From: Bradyrhizobium liaoningense
GTDB lineage: Bacteria; Pseudomonadota; Alphaproteobacteria; Rhizobiales; Xanthobacteraceae
NCBI RefSeq assembly: GCF_018130825.1
Contig: NZ_JAFCJS010000001.1
Location: 186,001-250,000, forward strand
Direction: 5' to 3'
Length of the DNA stretch: 64,000 nucleotides
The translations under genes and the position numbers were made by a program. Below, piece by piece: positions 11,633-16,270 of this stretch. Below the pieces are notes generated by a model that was not told where the DNA came from, did no database searches, and saw only the letters and a program-made list of their open reading frames with translations. The first letter of the stretch is position 1. Every line of letters begins with the position of its first letter.

Positions 11633-12139
11633 TCAGAAATCGAGCGAGATCCTGACGCAGGCCTTTTCCAGCCGGGTCTTCAGTGTTGCGAGCTTTGTGG
11701 TGAATTCCGTCAGCTCGTTCTCGTCGAATTCCTGGAAGACGAATTCGCGAATCGTCTTGTACTGCTCGTTGAGGCTCGCAATGTGCTTCTGGGTCTTGTC
11801 GACCAGGGACAGCCGCACGACCCGCGCGTCGGTCGGCGAGGGGCGTCGGCGCAGCAGGCCCTTCTTCTCCAGCAGCTTGGACTGGGTGGTGACGAAGGAG
11901 GGATCGACGTGGAGCAGCTTGGAGACCACGTTGACCGGAACGCCGTCATCCTTGTCGAGGTCGGAGATCGCCATCAGGATCAACCATTGCGGGCCGCTGA
12001 TGCCGAGCGTCCTCGCCCAGAACTGACGCAGCTCCTCCAGATACATGTTGATCGAGGATATCTCCCAGGTGAAGCGCCTGATGATATCCAGGTTGCCGAC
12101 GGAGCGCAGGCGCGCTCCTTCTTTCCTCGTCGCGGACAC
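11633..12139 (-). CDS. MarR family transcriptional regulator
   Basis: A 168-residue winged-helix regulator with the MarR core: LGISGPQWLILMAI, recognition region VVSKLLHVDPSFVTTQSKLLEKKGLL, and wing RRPSPTDARVVRLSL. A GTG at 12139 with GGGAG eight bases before it is the best start; the ATG at 12229 would add 30 residues without family character. It lies divergent from the porin gene across about 400 bases, so the porin or the regulator itself may be its target. Confidence 0.84.
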   Translation of the reverse strand: MSATRKEGARLRSVGNLDIIRRFTWEISSINMYLEELRQFWARTLGISGPQWLILMAISDLDKDDGVPVNVVSKLLHVDPSFVTTQSKLLEKKGLLRRRPSPTDARVVRLSLVDKTQKHIASLNEQYKTIREFVFQEFDENELTEFTTKLATLKTRLEKACVRISLDF

Positions 12140-12547
12140 AGCATCACTCCCGTGAAATGATTCTTCAGGCCGGTGTTCGTGCGGAGGGCATAGTCCACGC
12201 AAGCCTGCTCTGACGCAAGTGCAGAGCATGCTAATTTTGTCACTAAAACTACAAAGATGAGCCGGTCAGCATATTCGTCCGCCCCAGGTGTTGCGCCCGG
12301 GGCACAGGCTTAGTGAAACCAGAAAGCTGATCAAATAAACTATTTTGATTAGCGGAACGGCGCAGGCATATTGGCCGGTGACGGTGGGGGGTACTCGATC
12401 GTCCCGTTGCAGGTGGTTCGCTCACGTCCCTCGCGTCGAAAGCGGGTGTGTCCGAAAGCGCGAAGCGGCCGGGCGGATTTGAAGAGACGGGGATCTGGGG
12501 GGCCTCACGGTCCAGTCTCCGTAAAATGAGCAACTTGGAGGTTTTAA
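12140..12547. promoter_or_regulatory. marR-porin intergenic region with an A+T-rich palindrome
   Basis: About 408 bases without genes. At 12326-12353 an imperfect palindrome pairs GCTGATCAAATA with TATTTTGATTAGC around a three-base centre, a good candidate operator for the adjacent MarR protein or a porin regulator. The porin has a long leader and an excellent ribosome site (TTGGAGG, 12535-12541) nine bases before its ATG. Confidence 0.45.
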
Positions 12548-14104
12548 ATGAAAATGGTGAAGAGCCTTTTGCTCGGCACTGCGGCGGGTCTGATCGCCGT
12601 CGGCGGAGCTCAGGCAGCCGATCTTCCGGTCAAGGCCAAGGCGGTCGAGTACGTGAAGATCTGCTCGCTCTACGGCGCGGGTTTCTACTACATCCCGGGC
12701 AGCGACACCTGCATCAAGCTCGGCGGCTATCTGCGTGCCGAAGTGGCGCTCAATGCCGGCGGCAACTACAGCGCCCAGTACAACGGCGTCTTCGCGGCCA
12801 ATAACCGGCTCACCAACTACTACTCGATGCGTGCTCGTGAAGATCTCAACATCGACACGCGCACCGCGACCGAGTACGGCGTGGTCCGCACCTATTTCGA
12901 CGCGGTCTTCACCTGGACGACCGGCAACTATGGCGGCACCGGTTCGGCCACGGGCGGCACCCAGTACAGCGGCACGATCGGCCTCAATGCTGCGGGGACC
13001 GGCCTCACGGGCTCGAGCGGTGGTGCCGTCAACGGCACCGACGGCGGCATCTCCGGCGGCGCGCTCGGCGTCTACTACGCCTTCATCCAGTTCGCCGGCT
13101 TCACCCTAGGTAAGGCCGTCTCGCAGTTCGACGCGCCCTGGATCAACTATCCCGGCAACAACTTCGACCAGCTCGTCGGCGGCAGCGGCACCACTAACGG
13201 CGTCGTTCAGGCCACCTACACGGCCGATTTCGGCCAGGGCGTGACGGCTGCGTTCTCGTTGCAGGATCAGACGCAGGTCTTCCAGACCAACATCTGGAAC
13301 ACCGCCGGCATGAGCACCACCGGCGTCCTCGGCGGTGCCTATGGCTCGAACAACCTCGGCGGCAGCCGTGCTCCCGACATCGTCGGCATGGTCCGCGTCG
13401 ACCAGGCCTGGGGCCTGTTCCAGGCGTCGGTCGCCGCGCACGACAACCACGTCGCTTACTACGGCGCGACCGAAGCCACCGGTCATCCGGAAGACAAGTG
13501 GGGCTGGGCCGTCCAGCTCGCCTTGCAGATCAAGAACATCCCGACCGGCGCCGGCGACACGATCAACATCTCGGGCGTCTACACCGACGGTGCGAGCCGC
13601 TACAACTTCCAGGAGCTGGCCGCGACCAGCTACTCGATGTTCGGCAGCTCGAACGCGGCCTATCAGAGCATCGGCTTTGCCGGCGTGTCTGACGCGGTGT
13701 TCGGTCCGGGCGGCGGCCTCGAGCTGACCAAGACCTACGGCTTCCGTGGTGCCTACACCCACAACTGGAGCCCGTACTGGAACACGGCGCTCTATGGCGC
13801 GTGGGCTGCGGTCAACTACAGCGGCACGGCCAAGGGCCTGATCTGCGGCAGCGCCGCGTTCGCGACCCTGACCGGCACCTGCAACCCGGACTTCAACATC
13901 GGCCAGGTGGGCGTCATCACCCGCTGGACGCCGGTGAAGGGTCTGACCTTCTCGGCTGACTTCACCTACAGCCACCTCGACCAGAAGTATTCGGGCGTGA
14001 TCACGACCGGTGCACTGACGGGCGTCGCCAAGCCGGCGGCCACCTACGAGCTGAAGGACCAGGACACCTACAGCCTGCTGCTGCGCGCCCAGCGCAACTG
14101 GTAA
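12548..14104 (+). CDS. Outer membrane porin (Bradyrhizobium-type, alphaproteobacterial porin family)
   Basis: A 518-residue beta-barrel protein that should form passive diffusion channels in the outer membrane. It has a Sec signal peptide (MKMVKSLLLGTAAGLIAVGG, cleavage after AQA), then ADLPVKAKAVEYVKICSLYG and DTCIKLGGYLRAEV, the signature of the rhizobial porin family. Gly, Asn and Tyr are abundant, with alternating hydrophobic strands, and the C-terminus ends in an aromatic residue (RAQRNW), as needed for BAM recognition. It is monocistronic with its own terminator. Strong codon bias suggests high expression. Confidence 0.95.
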   Translation: MKMVKSLLLGTAAGLIAVGGAQAADLPVKAKAVEYVKICSLYGAGFYYIPGSDTCIKLGGYLRAEVALNAGGNYSAQYNGVFAANNRLTNYYSMRAREDLNIDTRTATEYGVVRTYFDAVFTWTTGNYGGTGSATGGTQYSGTIGLNAAGTGLTGSSGGAVNGTDGGISGGALGVYYAFIQFAGFTLGKAVSQFDAPWINYPGNNFDQLVGGSGTTNGVVQATYTADFGQGVTAAFSLQDQTQVFQTNIWNTAGMSTTGVLGGAYGSNNLGGSRAPDIVGMVRVDQAWGLFQASVAAHDNHVAYYGATEATGHPEDKWGWAVQLALQIKNIPTGAGDTINISGVYTDGASRYNFQELAATSYSMFGSSNAAYQSIGFAGVSDAVFGPGGGLELTKTYGFRGAYTHNWSPYWNTALYGAWAAVNYSGTAKGLICGSAAFATLTGTCNPDFNIGQVGVITRWTPVKGLTFSADFTYSHLDQKYSGVITTGALTGVAKPAATYELKDQDTYSLLLRAQRNW

Positions 14105-14126
14105 GGTCGGTCTATCGGACTTGATG

Positions 14127-14158
14127 AAGCCCCGGCGGGAAACCGCCGGGGCTTTTTC
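14127..14158 (+). terminator. Intrinsic terminator of the porin gene
   Basis: A 12-bp stem (AAGCCCCGGCGG with CCGCCGGGGCTT) closed by a GAAA tetraloop and followed by TTTTT, 23 bases after the porin stop. Confidence 0.93.
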
Positions 14159-14277
14159 TCGAAGGGAGGGGCTTTCGGAAAATCCGGCGGGCCTCTGCCG
14201 GGGACGAAGACGAGCTATGCGAGTCGATCGTCTTCAAACTTATTTACTTACCTGAGTTAATCAGCTATATAGCTCTC

Positions 14278-14363
14278 AGCCAAATACGAAAGTTGCGGCT
14301 CTTAGCTTCACGCTAAGCCTCCAGGAACCTCCGGTGATGCCCCGCCGGAGGTTTTTCTTTTTT
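14278..14363 (+). ncRNA. Candidate small RNA downstream of the porin
   Basis: A free-standing plus-strand terminator (AACCTCCGG / CCGGAGGTT at 14326-14353, followed by T-runs) lies after the porin's own terminator. It is preceded by a 6-bp hairpin (CTTAGC/GCTAAG, 14301-14317) and a weaker stem at 14278-14300. TATATA at 14266-14271, with TTTACT 17 bases upstream (14243-14248), gives a plausible promoter and an RNA of about 80 nt. The linker carries CCTCC, complementary to ribosome sites. No protein frame fits. Not matched to a known family from memory. Confidence 0.5.
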
Positions 14364-14376
14364 GAAAGAACAGGGC

Positions 14377-14856
14377 TCAACCGCGCATCATGCGGGCGCG
14401 CGAGTTCGGCCGGTAGGCGAGGCGGCTGTGGCCGGCGCAATAGGGCTGGCCGTCGGGCGAAGTATTGCCGCAGAAGCAGAAATCGTCTTCACCCGGGCTG
14501 GAGATCGGCCAGCGGCAGCGGTTCTCGGACAATTCCAGCAGCGAGCAGCGATTGGCGTCGTCGATGGGGCCGGCGACGACAGGCGCATCGGTCTCGCCGT
14601 AGATCGTCGCGAGCATCTCGTATTGCAGCCGCGGTACGGCGCGGGTCGCGCGCGCCGGCGGCGCGAGGCTTCGCTCGAGCCTGCGGTCTTCGACCGCGCG
14701 GCTGCGGGTCAGATTGAGCCGGGACAGCTTGCCGATGACCGCGTTGCGGCTGACGCCGATGTCGGCGGCGATCTCGCGGCAGGAGAGGCCGGCCTCGAAG
14801 TGCTGCTTCAGAAGTTCAATTCGTTCGTCGGTCCAGGTCGGTGAGAGAATAGGCAT
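14377..14856 (-). CDS. gcrA: Cell cycle regulator GcrA
   Basis: GcrA is an alphaproteobacterial regulator that works with RNA polymerase sigma-70 at promoters containing CcrM-methylated GANTC sites. The N-terminal helix-turn-helix reads SPTWTDERIELLKQHFEAG then SCREIAADIGVSRNAVIGKL. A C-terminal segment has NRCSLLELSENRCRWPI and FCFCGN...YCAGHSRLAY. With the ATG at 14856 the protein is 159 residues, starting MPILSPTW as in relatives. An in-frame ATG at 14889 adds a non-conserved stretch. Confidence 0.95.
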   Translation of the reverse strand: MPILSPTWTDERIELLKQHFEAGLSCREIAADIGVSRNAVIGKLSRLNLTRSRAVEDRRLERSLAPPARATRAVPRLQYEMLATIYGETDAPVVAGPIDDANRCSLLELSENRCRWPISSPGEDDFCFCGNTSPDGQPYCAGHSRLAYRPNSRARMMRG

Positions 14857-14930
14857 TGGTAACGGTCCCAGGTTGCAGATGCCGGCCATCCGCCTTCTCG
14901 AGATCCGTCCGCCTCACGTCCGGCGCGCGC

Positions 14931-15128
14931 TCACGTCCTGCCATTGTCGCGAATCGACAGGAGCCCGTCCTTGATGGCGAGACGGATGCCTTCCTCGATC
15001 AAGGTTCGTGCGACGCCGGGAACGCTGGTGCCGTGGGTGCCCTGTCTCACCAGTTTCTCCAGATAGGTGATGGTCGAGAGCGCCAAGGTTACGGGAATGC
15101 GGTCAGTCTCGGCTTTTTCGGTGGCCAT
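14931..15128 (-). CDS. Small ribbon-helix-helix-like protein
   Basis: A 65-residue protein whose pattern (IPVTLALSTITYLEKLVRQG, then SVPGVARTLIEEGIRLAI) fits a beta-strand followed by two helices, as in CopG/MetJ/Arc-type ribbon-helix-helix DNA-binding proteins. No toxin gene is adjacent, so it is unlikely to be an antitoxin. It precedes gcrA on the same strand by about 75 bases and may be cotranscribed with it. A perfect palindrome lies just upstream. Function is unknown. Confidence 0.65.
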   Translation of the reverse strand: MATEKAETDRIPVTLALSTITYLEKLVRQGTHGTSVPGVARTLIEEGIRLAIKDGLLSIRDNGRT

Positions 15129-15147
15129 GGCCCGAACGCTAGCCTCT

Positions 15148-15180
15148 TACCCGGGTACATAAAAGTAACGATTAAGACTC
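15148..15180 (-). promoter_or_regulatory. Palindrome and GANTC site upstream of the ribbon-helix-helix gene
   Basis: The perfect 10-bp palindrome TACCCGGGTA (15148-15157) lies 20 bases upstream of the small gene's start. An A+T-rich stretch ending in GACTC (15176-15180), a CcrM/GcrA-type GANTC site, follows; another GANTC is at 15238-15242. The palindrome could be an autoregulatory operator. Inference only. Confidence 0.4.
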
Positions 15181-15328
15181 TATTTAGGTTCGGGGGTGGA
15201 AGTCAAATGCGGTCACAGGCCGCAGCTCAGCGCATTGGAATCACTGGAGAAATCTGGCACGCGGCGGCGCACCGCGCGGAAACCCGCGCGGCGGCGTGGC
15301 GTCGACAGGGCAGAAGGTGCGGGCCGGC

Positions 15329-16270
15329 TCAGCCGTGCACGATGGCTTTTTCGATCATGCAATGGATGCCCTTGGAGCCGTTGACGGTCTGGGTCACCCG
15401 CAGATCGGCCGCCAGGCTGCACAGGGTGTAGGCGTCCTCGCGCGACAGGTTTCGCCTCTCGCCGAGCAGGGCGATCATGTCGCGGAGCGCGCGCACCGCG
15501 CACTGGTCGAGGTCGGGGTCCATGGCCATGGTCATGTAGTGCGTTGCCGTTTCGGCGCGGGGATAGTCGAGCTTCAGGTCCTTGCGCAGCGTCAGGCGGA
15601 AGCGGCCCTGCAGCGCGGTCTCGATCGCGGTGACGCAGACCTCGCCGTCGCCCTGCACGCCATGGCCGTCGCCGCAGGAGAACATCGCGCCCGGAACGAA
15701 CACCGGCAGATAGAGCGTCGCCCCAGTGCCGAGCTCCTTGTTGTCGAGATTGCCGCCCATGGCGCGCGGGACCAGCGAGGAGATGCGGCCCCAGCTAGGT
15801 GGCGGCGACACGCCCATCACGCCGAAGAACGGTTTGAGCGGCAGATCGAGGCCCCAGGGCAGACGTCCCACCATCCGCGTCCGGTCGAGCGGGATGTTGA
15901 GGATGCGTGTCTCGTGGAAATCGTCGGGCAGGGTGCCGGACAGCGGCTTGATCATGTTCCAGCCCCAGTCCTGCCGGAGCTGGACGTCGAGGATCTCGAC
16001 CGCGAGCACGTCGCCGGGCTCGGCGCCCTCGATCGCGATCGGGCCGGTGAGGATGTGGCCGGGCAGCATGCGCTCGCTTTTGGCATGGACCTCGTACATC
16101 TCCGGCGGAATGTGAAACTTGTCGCGGTCGGGCAGCATGTCGGGGCCGCCGCTGATGGTGTCGACGGTCACCTCGTCACCGCTTTTGATCGTCAGCACCG
16201 GCTTGAGCTTGGCTTCGAAGAAGCCCCAATGACAGGTCTCGGGGCTGGAATGCAGGTGGTGATGGGTCAT
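15329..16270 (-). CDS. Acetamidase/formamidase family protein
   Basis: Hydrolyses short-chain amides such as formamide or acetamide to the acid and ammonia, by family assignment. Features are the N-terminal MTHHHLHSSPETCHWGFFEA, DTISGGPDMLP, the AIEGAEPGDVLAVEILD motif, and SCGDGHGVQGDGEVCVTAIE in the C-terminal half. Length is 313 residues with the ATG at 16270, normal for the family. The open frame continues far upstream but reads through the neighbouring gene and is spurious. It is divergent from the ElyC-like gene. Confidence 0.9.
   Translation of the reverse strand: MTHHHLHSSPETCHWGFFEAKLKPVLTIKSGDEVTVDTISGGPDMLPDRDKFHIPPEMYEVHAKSERMLPGHILTGPIAIEGAEPGDVLAVEILDVQLRQDWGWNMIKPLSGTLPDDFHETRILNIPLDRTRMVGRLPWGLDLPLKPFFGVMGVSPPPSWGRISSLVPRAMGGNLDNKELGTGATLYLPVFVPGAMFSCGDGHGVQGDGEVCVTAIETALQGRFRLTLRKDLKLDYPRAETATHYMTMAMDPDLDQCAVRALRDMIALLGERRNLSREDAYTLCSLAADLRVTQTVNGSKGIHCMIEKAIVHG

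Follow-up and report, generated by a model that had tools for sequence, protein, structure and literature searches.

What occupies the interval between a porin gene and a convergent gcrA-like gene in Bradyrhizobium liaoningense, where an AT-rich block separates the porin terminator from a folded stretch of about 80 nt? The DNA analyzed here, referred to as the window, is 64,000 nucleotides long, and positions without another label are those of the window. A sequence-only reading had proposed a small RNA gene at 14228-14363 with a promoter and a terminator of its own, and all of the features that it listed there can be located in the sequence. The anatomy, conservation, porin linkage, and complementarity of this element are established here, and the balance tips modestly toward 14240-14363 encoding a trans-acting small RNA, about 80 nt long, that would pair with the porin ribosome-binding site and block translation. 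The features of the locus are as follows.

12534-12544, plus strand: ribosome-site stretch of the porin leader, CTTGGAGGTTT, the proposed target (sequence)
12537-12543, plus strand: GGAGGTT in the porin leader (sequence)
12548-14104, plus strand: porin gene (Pfam Porin_2, E 7e-101)
14127-14158, plus strand: terminator of the porin gene, between the porin and the small RNA gene (sequence)
14240-14271, plus strand: promoter block with conserved spacer (−35 TTTACT, 14243-14248; −10 CTATAT, 14265-14270)
14278-14358, plus strand: predicted small RNA, about 80 nt long (start placed from the −10; fold z −3.36; model matches)
14278-14300, plus strand: hairpin 1 (pairs retained in 96.6-98.3% of cells)
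14301-14317, plus strand: hairpin 2 (97.1% of cells paired; both-sided change in three of six pairs)
14315-14325, plus strand: antisense stretch AAGCCUCCAGG (sequence, fold, pairing tests)
14318-14322, plus strand: open linker CCTCC (sequence, fold)
14323-14363, plus strand: terminator hairpin and U tail (stem 14323-14356, T-run to 14363)
14377-14889, minus strand: gcrA-like gene, the convergent neighbor outside the element (Pfam GcrA, E 6e-56)

The predicted RNA at 14278-14358 has a folding energy of −32.9 kcal/mol (z −3.36), and none of 200 shuffled sequences folded equally low. Between 13000 and 15500, we find four terminator-like sites compared with a shuffle mean of 1.4, and the hairpin at 14323-14356 has the most pairs (14) among the four. 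The gcrA-like gene scores under the NCBIfam equivalog cut-off (96.5 versus 280 bits). On the other side of the locus, a MarR-family gene lies beside the window porin (11633-12229, minus strand; Pfam), and two Bradyrhizobium plasmids likewise have an annotated MarR-family gene adjoining a porin (L277, 21686-22165; L279, 19045-19527).

A candidate promoter, conserved among the copies, lies upstream of the predicted RNA. Its elements had been given as TTTACT, 17 bases, and TATATA (14266-14271); the better −10 is CTATAT at 14265-14270, with a spacer of 16. CTATAT stands as the −10 in 61 of 69 aligned copies, and the extended form GCTATA is present in 48 of the 69. The pattern of TTnACT followed by a −10 hexamer fits 67 of the 69, and in every one of these the two hexamers are 16 bases apart. 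GCTATA is described as a tested, extended −10 feature of Bradyrhizobium japonicum promoters (PMC4842269). A simple promoter scan of 13000-15500 reported two sites and missed the one at 14240-14271 because TTTACT is a weak −35, and support for the predicted promoter comes from conservation. In a set of 20 copies, the one in the window and 19 divergent ones, mean pairwise identity is 92% within the promoter block (−38 to −7) versus 64% upstream, 37% in the six-base stretch that follows the −10, and 34% downstream of the element.

The spacer between the −35 and −10 hexamers (TTACCTGAGTTACTAAG-like) is conserved as strongly as the hexamers themselves, both at 14240-14271 and in homologous blocks such as those of L077, L079, and L139, and the conserved spacer suggests a possible binding site for a DNA-binding regulator. 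Loosely similar TTTACTnA or GAGTAAAT words precede distant copies of the element. No second copy of the promoter block occurs in this genome within three mismatches, and a control search with the pattern reversed likewise produced a single match; the idea of a promoter-block regulon was therefore dropped. Nor do we retain the palindrome AGCTATATAGCT at 14263-14274 as a putative operator, since it is intact in only 19 of 69 aligned copies. EcfG-dependent promoters have the form GGAAC-N16-19-GTT. There is no EcfG motif in 14101-14400, and the neighbors are a porin gene and gcrA, which sets aside an EcfG-controlled stress RNA such as GsrN, for which the criteria include proximity to the phyR-ecfG locus (PMC5869019).

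The element is widely conserved within the genus. BLAST with 14220-14370 finds matches in 153 of 195 same-genus genomes, some through the core alone, and a 46-nt core model is present in 100 of 117 same-genus genomes, or 99 of the 109 of good quality. In the genome of the window, the element is single-copy, with one match to the covariance and core models, which rules out a repeat or mobile element. RNA lengths range from 73 to 81 nt among 59 distinct copies and do not change in steps of three, which argues against a small open reading frame. The terminator (14328-14356) is the best conserved part, with 98% mean pairwise identity over 20 copies, and the hairpins and linker follow with 76 to 82%. 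Over the 59 copies, the named helices are 98.8% paired, with five pairs changed on both sides, and none of 500 shuffles reached as high a value, although kinship among sequences can by itself exceed shuffles without any structure. Further pair types in the same test are no higher than in shuffles (261 of 500). The two small hairpins were named from the fold of the window RNA and then counted across copies; RNAalifold by itself retained just the terminator helix. The conserved promoter block, its spacing, the RNA core, and the named helices thus support well a predicted small RNA gene with its own promoter and terminator.

Beyond the genus, 248 genomes of the GTDB family were scanned with the covariance model of the RNA, and 75 of them, from 13 of 47 genera, gave matches. 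A pattern scan of named genomes returned 73 stretches that are labeled as Bradyrhizobium (66), Rhodopseudomonas (5), Bradyrhizobiaceae bacterium (1), and Frankia (1). The last of these is a contig labeled Frankia sp. RB7 (L257), which aligns at 82 to 86% with a Bradyrhizobium vignae contig and is probably mislabeled or contaminated. Outside the GTDB family, 16 genomes gave weak matches (E 4e-6 to 8e-4) with no porin in their 3-kb loci, and we dropped these as occurrences of the element.

What the copies share is a porin. We fetched 169 loci, a subset of all matches, and excluded L164, L287, and L314, which are plain terminators, as well as L163, which is cut by a contig end. All of the remaining 165 elements lie downstream of a porin gene on the same strand, 152 of them at 17 to 633 nt and 13 at 1.0 to 2.4 kb; because the loci are related, these numbers lack independence (L007 and L052 represent one place, and L002 is the window). 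The porins upstream of the elements fall to about 36% identity with the window porin, and in genome G286 all six element matches, each of them fetched, stand behind porins. Three of the 13 distant loci were inspected (L133, L139, and L155, all of one genus), and in these a gene of about 650 to 720 codons, TPR-like by eye, lies between the porin and the RNA, so that the RNA no longer adjoins the porin there. The genome of the window encodes two further porins with 72% and 70% identity to the window porin, and no element was found in the 600 nt downstream of one of the two (L093).

Two architectures are found among the 152 near copies. Separate units make up 120 of them, and in 115 of the 120 a terminator-like hairpin stands between the porin and the element. 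The other 32 lie 17 to 86 nt past the porin stop codon with no intervening terminator-like hairpin found, that is, in the apparent 3′ UTR of the porin. The window copy sits behind the terminator of its porin and hence outside the 3′ UTR. All 70 long-match loci (L002-L071) are likewise separate units, 194 to 312 nt behind the porin, with an intervening terminator-like hairpin in 67. In many distant copies (L128, L130, L136, L139, and L147 among others), an AAGGAG-like word occurs some 15 to 35 nt upstream of the CCUCC linker; this word, degenerate in the window copy, looks like a ribosome site or like a partner of the linker.

The sequence-only reading had noted CCTCC or AACCTCC in both linker and stem and had suggested that they pair with the porin ribosome site. 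The CCTCC at 14318-14322 is indeed unpaired, whereas AACCTCC sits in the terminator stem. In the window, AAGCCUCCAGG can pair with CUUGGAGGUUU at 12534-12544 through 11 base pairs, including two G-U pairs; CCUCC (14318-14322) is the only part of this antisense stretch that is unpaired in the fold of the small RNA, and the flanks need unwinding. From 64 distinct linkers comes the consensus UAAACCUCCAR, which is similar to the complement of CUUGGAGGUUUA, the common porin leader; many porin leaders have GCAACUUGGAGGUUUAA ahead of the ATG. Within the pairing set, CTTGGAGG occurs in 58 of 89 porin leaders versus none of 15 GGAGG-bearing control leaders. The linker retains CCUCC or UCUCC where the terminator arm has turned to CCACC, CCUCU, CCCCC, or CCUUC, and linker and terminator are therefore conserved separately from each other. 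L054 and L160 have changes in the linker.

We tested 89 distinct linker-leader pairs against the leaders of 79 annotated plasmid genes, excluding loci where the porin match does not start at residue 1, together with L054, L088, and L160, whose linker core the script failed to detect. On median, 3 of the 79 controls pair as well as the cognate porin; none does so in 30 pairs, and 12 of the 89 pairs rank at 20 or worse among the 79. When the bases that flank CCUCC were shuffled, the natural flanks outscored more than half of the shuffled versions in 76 of 89 pairs and for 62 of 71 distinct linkers; only 12 of the 89 pairs reached p ≤ 0.05. When only the GGAGG-bearing controls are considered, the mean fraction that pairs as strongly is 16% (77 pairs, 15 controls). 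A two-block duplex in which AAGUUGC of the RNA would also pair with GCAACUU of the leader was rejected, as the blocks are in the wrong order for one antiparallel duplex and are not conserved. Pairing past the Shine-Dalgarno core is thus moderately supported by these comparisons.

The same tests qualify the proposed partner. For the window RNA, 6 of the 79 controls are as strong as its own porin, and 2 of the 79 are as strong as the second porin. In that comparison, the plasmid porin L278 scored badly, its leader having been cut at the match start rather than at the annotated start. Cognate leaders are favored over those of other porins in only 49 of 89 pairs (mean difference, +0.15 kcal), which amounts to no preference. 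Before an ATG, TTGGAGGTT occurs at eight places in this genome. Two of these are porins, six stand before frames of other kinds or of doubtful status, and the third porin of this genome is absent from the eight. Because the cognate leader is not preferred and the motif is found in other leaders, the data agree with a target that is the common porin leader and not the neighbor alone. The earlier pairing suggestion thus gains partial support, from a linker that complements a shared porin leader past GGAGG and from a module that follows porins through the bacterial family.

Other GGAGG-led targets may also be compatible with the pairing data, and these can be carried further, to a general, AbcR-like anti-Shine-Dalgarno small RNA that acts chiefly on other GGAGG-led mRNAs, has inherited its place beside the porin, and exerts no porin control. 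CCUCC complements any GGAGG, 3 of the 15 GGAGG-bearing control leaders pair with the window RNA as well as its own porin does, and both the six non-porin places and the indifference to cognate porins would be expected of such an RNA. We nevertheless regard it as rather unlikely, given that the linker flanks track the porin leader past GGAGG and that the porin linkage extends over 165 elements and to porins of about 36% identity, with even the 13 distant cases remaining within 2.4 kb. Less probable still is a conserved terminator module of the porin tail that ends transcripts and stabilizes their 3′ ends but has no antisense function, in which case the separate copies would be relics or decoys. 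The 32 near copies in the apparent 3′ UTR, with no other terminator found, and the 98% conservation of the terminator speak for such a module; the separate copies, however, keep a promoter block with fixed spacing, 115 of 120 of them have another terminator ahead of the element, and the linker persists where the terminator arm has changed. An internal switch, in which the linker CCUCC and the terminator arm would compete for GGAGG in an attenuator or self-masking RNA, is very improbable: CCUCC at 14318-14322 could pair with GGAGG of the terminator 3′ arm in the window, but L139, L151, and L313 have arms of CCACC..GGTGG or CCTTCGG..CCGAAGG and yet a CCUCC or UCUCC linker, such that full pairing is impossible, and an attenuator in the window would lack a target, since the gene that follows it directly, gcrA, is on the other strand.

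The porin-directed small RNA that we favor was compared with known systems. A search of the whole window against Rfam 15 gave only three tRNAs at gathering score, and 15 matches to 14100-14500 at E up to 5 were all far under their gathering scores, which excludes a known Rfam RNA. MicF and MicC are porin-repressing small RNAs, and the MicF gene also adjoins a porin gene. The tail of icaR is long and comes from a Gram-positive organism, which distinguishes it from the element, and we know of no free small RNA gene form of it. Like MicF, MicC, and VrrA, a further RNA of the porin-repressing type (PMC2628432), the element has its own promoter and terminator, seen here through sequence and conservation only, and would cover the start region of an outer membrane protein mRNA. 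It differs in that we find no sequence relation to them, it would use a short CCUCC linker between hairpins as its antisense part, it is limited to one lineage and has a sister form within the 3′ UTRs of porins, and its repression is a prediction. OppZ and CarZ are autoregulating small RNAs derived from 3′ UTRs (PMC7398697), and the sister form of the element in the 3′ UTR could similarly repress its own mRNA; the window copy, in contrast, is a separate unit behind the porin terminator and is known from sequence alone. The 3′ UTR of icaR mRNA pairs with its own Shine-Dalgarno sequence (PMC3868564), and the 3′ UTR form of the element likewise has a C-rich anti-Shine-Dalgarno motif that could pair with the ribosome site of the same mRNA. 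AbcR and other α-rhizobial small RNAs have CU-rich anti-Shine-Dalgarno motifs in unpaired regions, and in Sinorhizobium meliloti the AbcR genes form a tandem pair near lsrB with two such motifs (PMC7143759). The element shares the alphaproteobacterial origin and an unpaired, CU-rich anti-Shine-Dalgarno motif; it is, however, a single copy beside a porin gene and gcrA with no Rfam match, and AbcR membership is ruled out by the lack of a tandem pair and of proximity to lsrB.

The B. japonicum small RNAs individually compared were BjrC174 and BjsR1-10, the latter through the coordinates of relative G187, which we take to be USDA 110. BjrC174 (RF02355) is located elsewhere in this genome. The predicted start of the element in G187, at about 5,527,086 on the minus strand, equals no coordinate in Table 1 of the BjsR1-10 report (PMC5082802), which separates the element from BjsR1-10 by coordinates only. 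According to that report, these are orphan small RNAs, most with predicted promoters (PMC5082802), and the element resembles them as an orphan with a predicted promoter in the same genus.

If the element is a porin-directed small RNA, it would be transcribed from its own σ70-type promoter and stop at the U-tailed terminator. The exposed CCUCC and its flanking bases would then pair with the ribosome-binding site CUUGGAGGUUU that is common to several porin mRNAs, and coverage of this site would block translation and lower porin synthesis. Hfq would probably be involved, as judged from the U tail only. Transcription, the start site, the role of Hfq, repression, and the physiological role are what we infer. 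As for the 3′ UTR form of the module, it could work in cis on the mRNA that carries it or as an RNA derived from the tail. More tentatively, the two architectures might represent one regulator in two states, an anti-ribosome-site tail in the porin 3′ UTR that silences its own mRNA or those of other porins and a released, independent small RNA gene; such a portable, porin-borne repressor, through which paralogs would repress one another, is a possibility that we hold with less conviction.

Little seems to have been described of how Porin_2 proteins are controlled post-transcriptionally in the Bradyrhizobium/Rhodopseudomonas group, and we found no report of such control among the matches listed for the open-access literature, as far as their available text goes. 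The element may be a conserved short-RNA gene beside an outer membrane channel gene that putatively dampens translation of the channel protein. If this is true, the family would provide a test case for how nitrogen-fixing symbionts balance their sets of porins. A single bacterial family would also contain one RNA both as a 3′ UTR form and as a free gene, and the origin of small RNA genes from mRNA tails, or the reverse, could be studied there directly.
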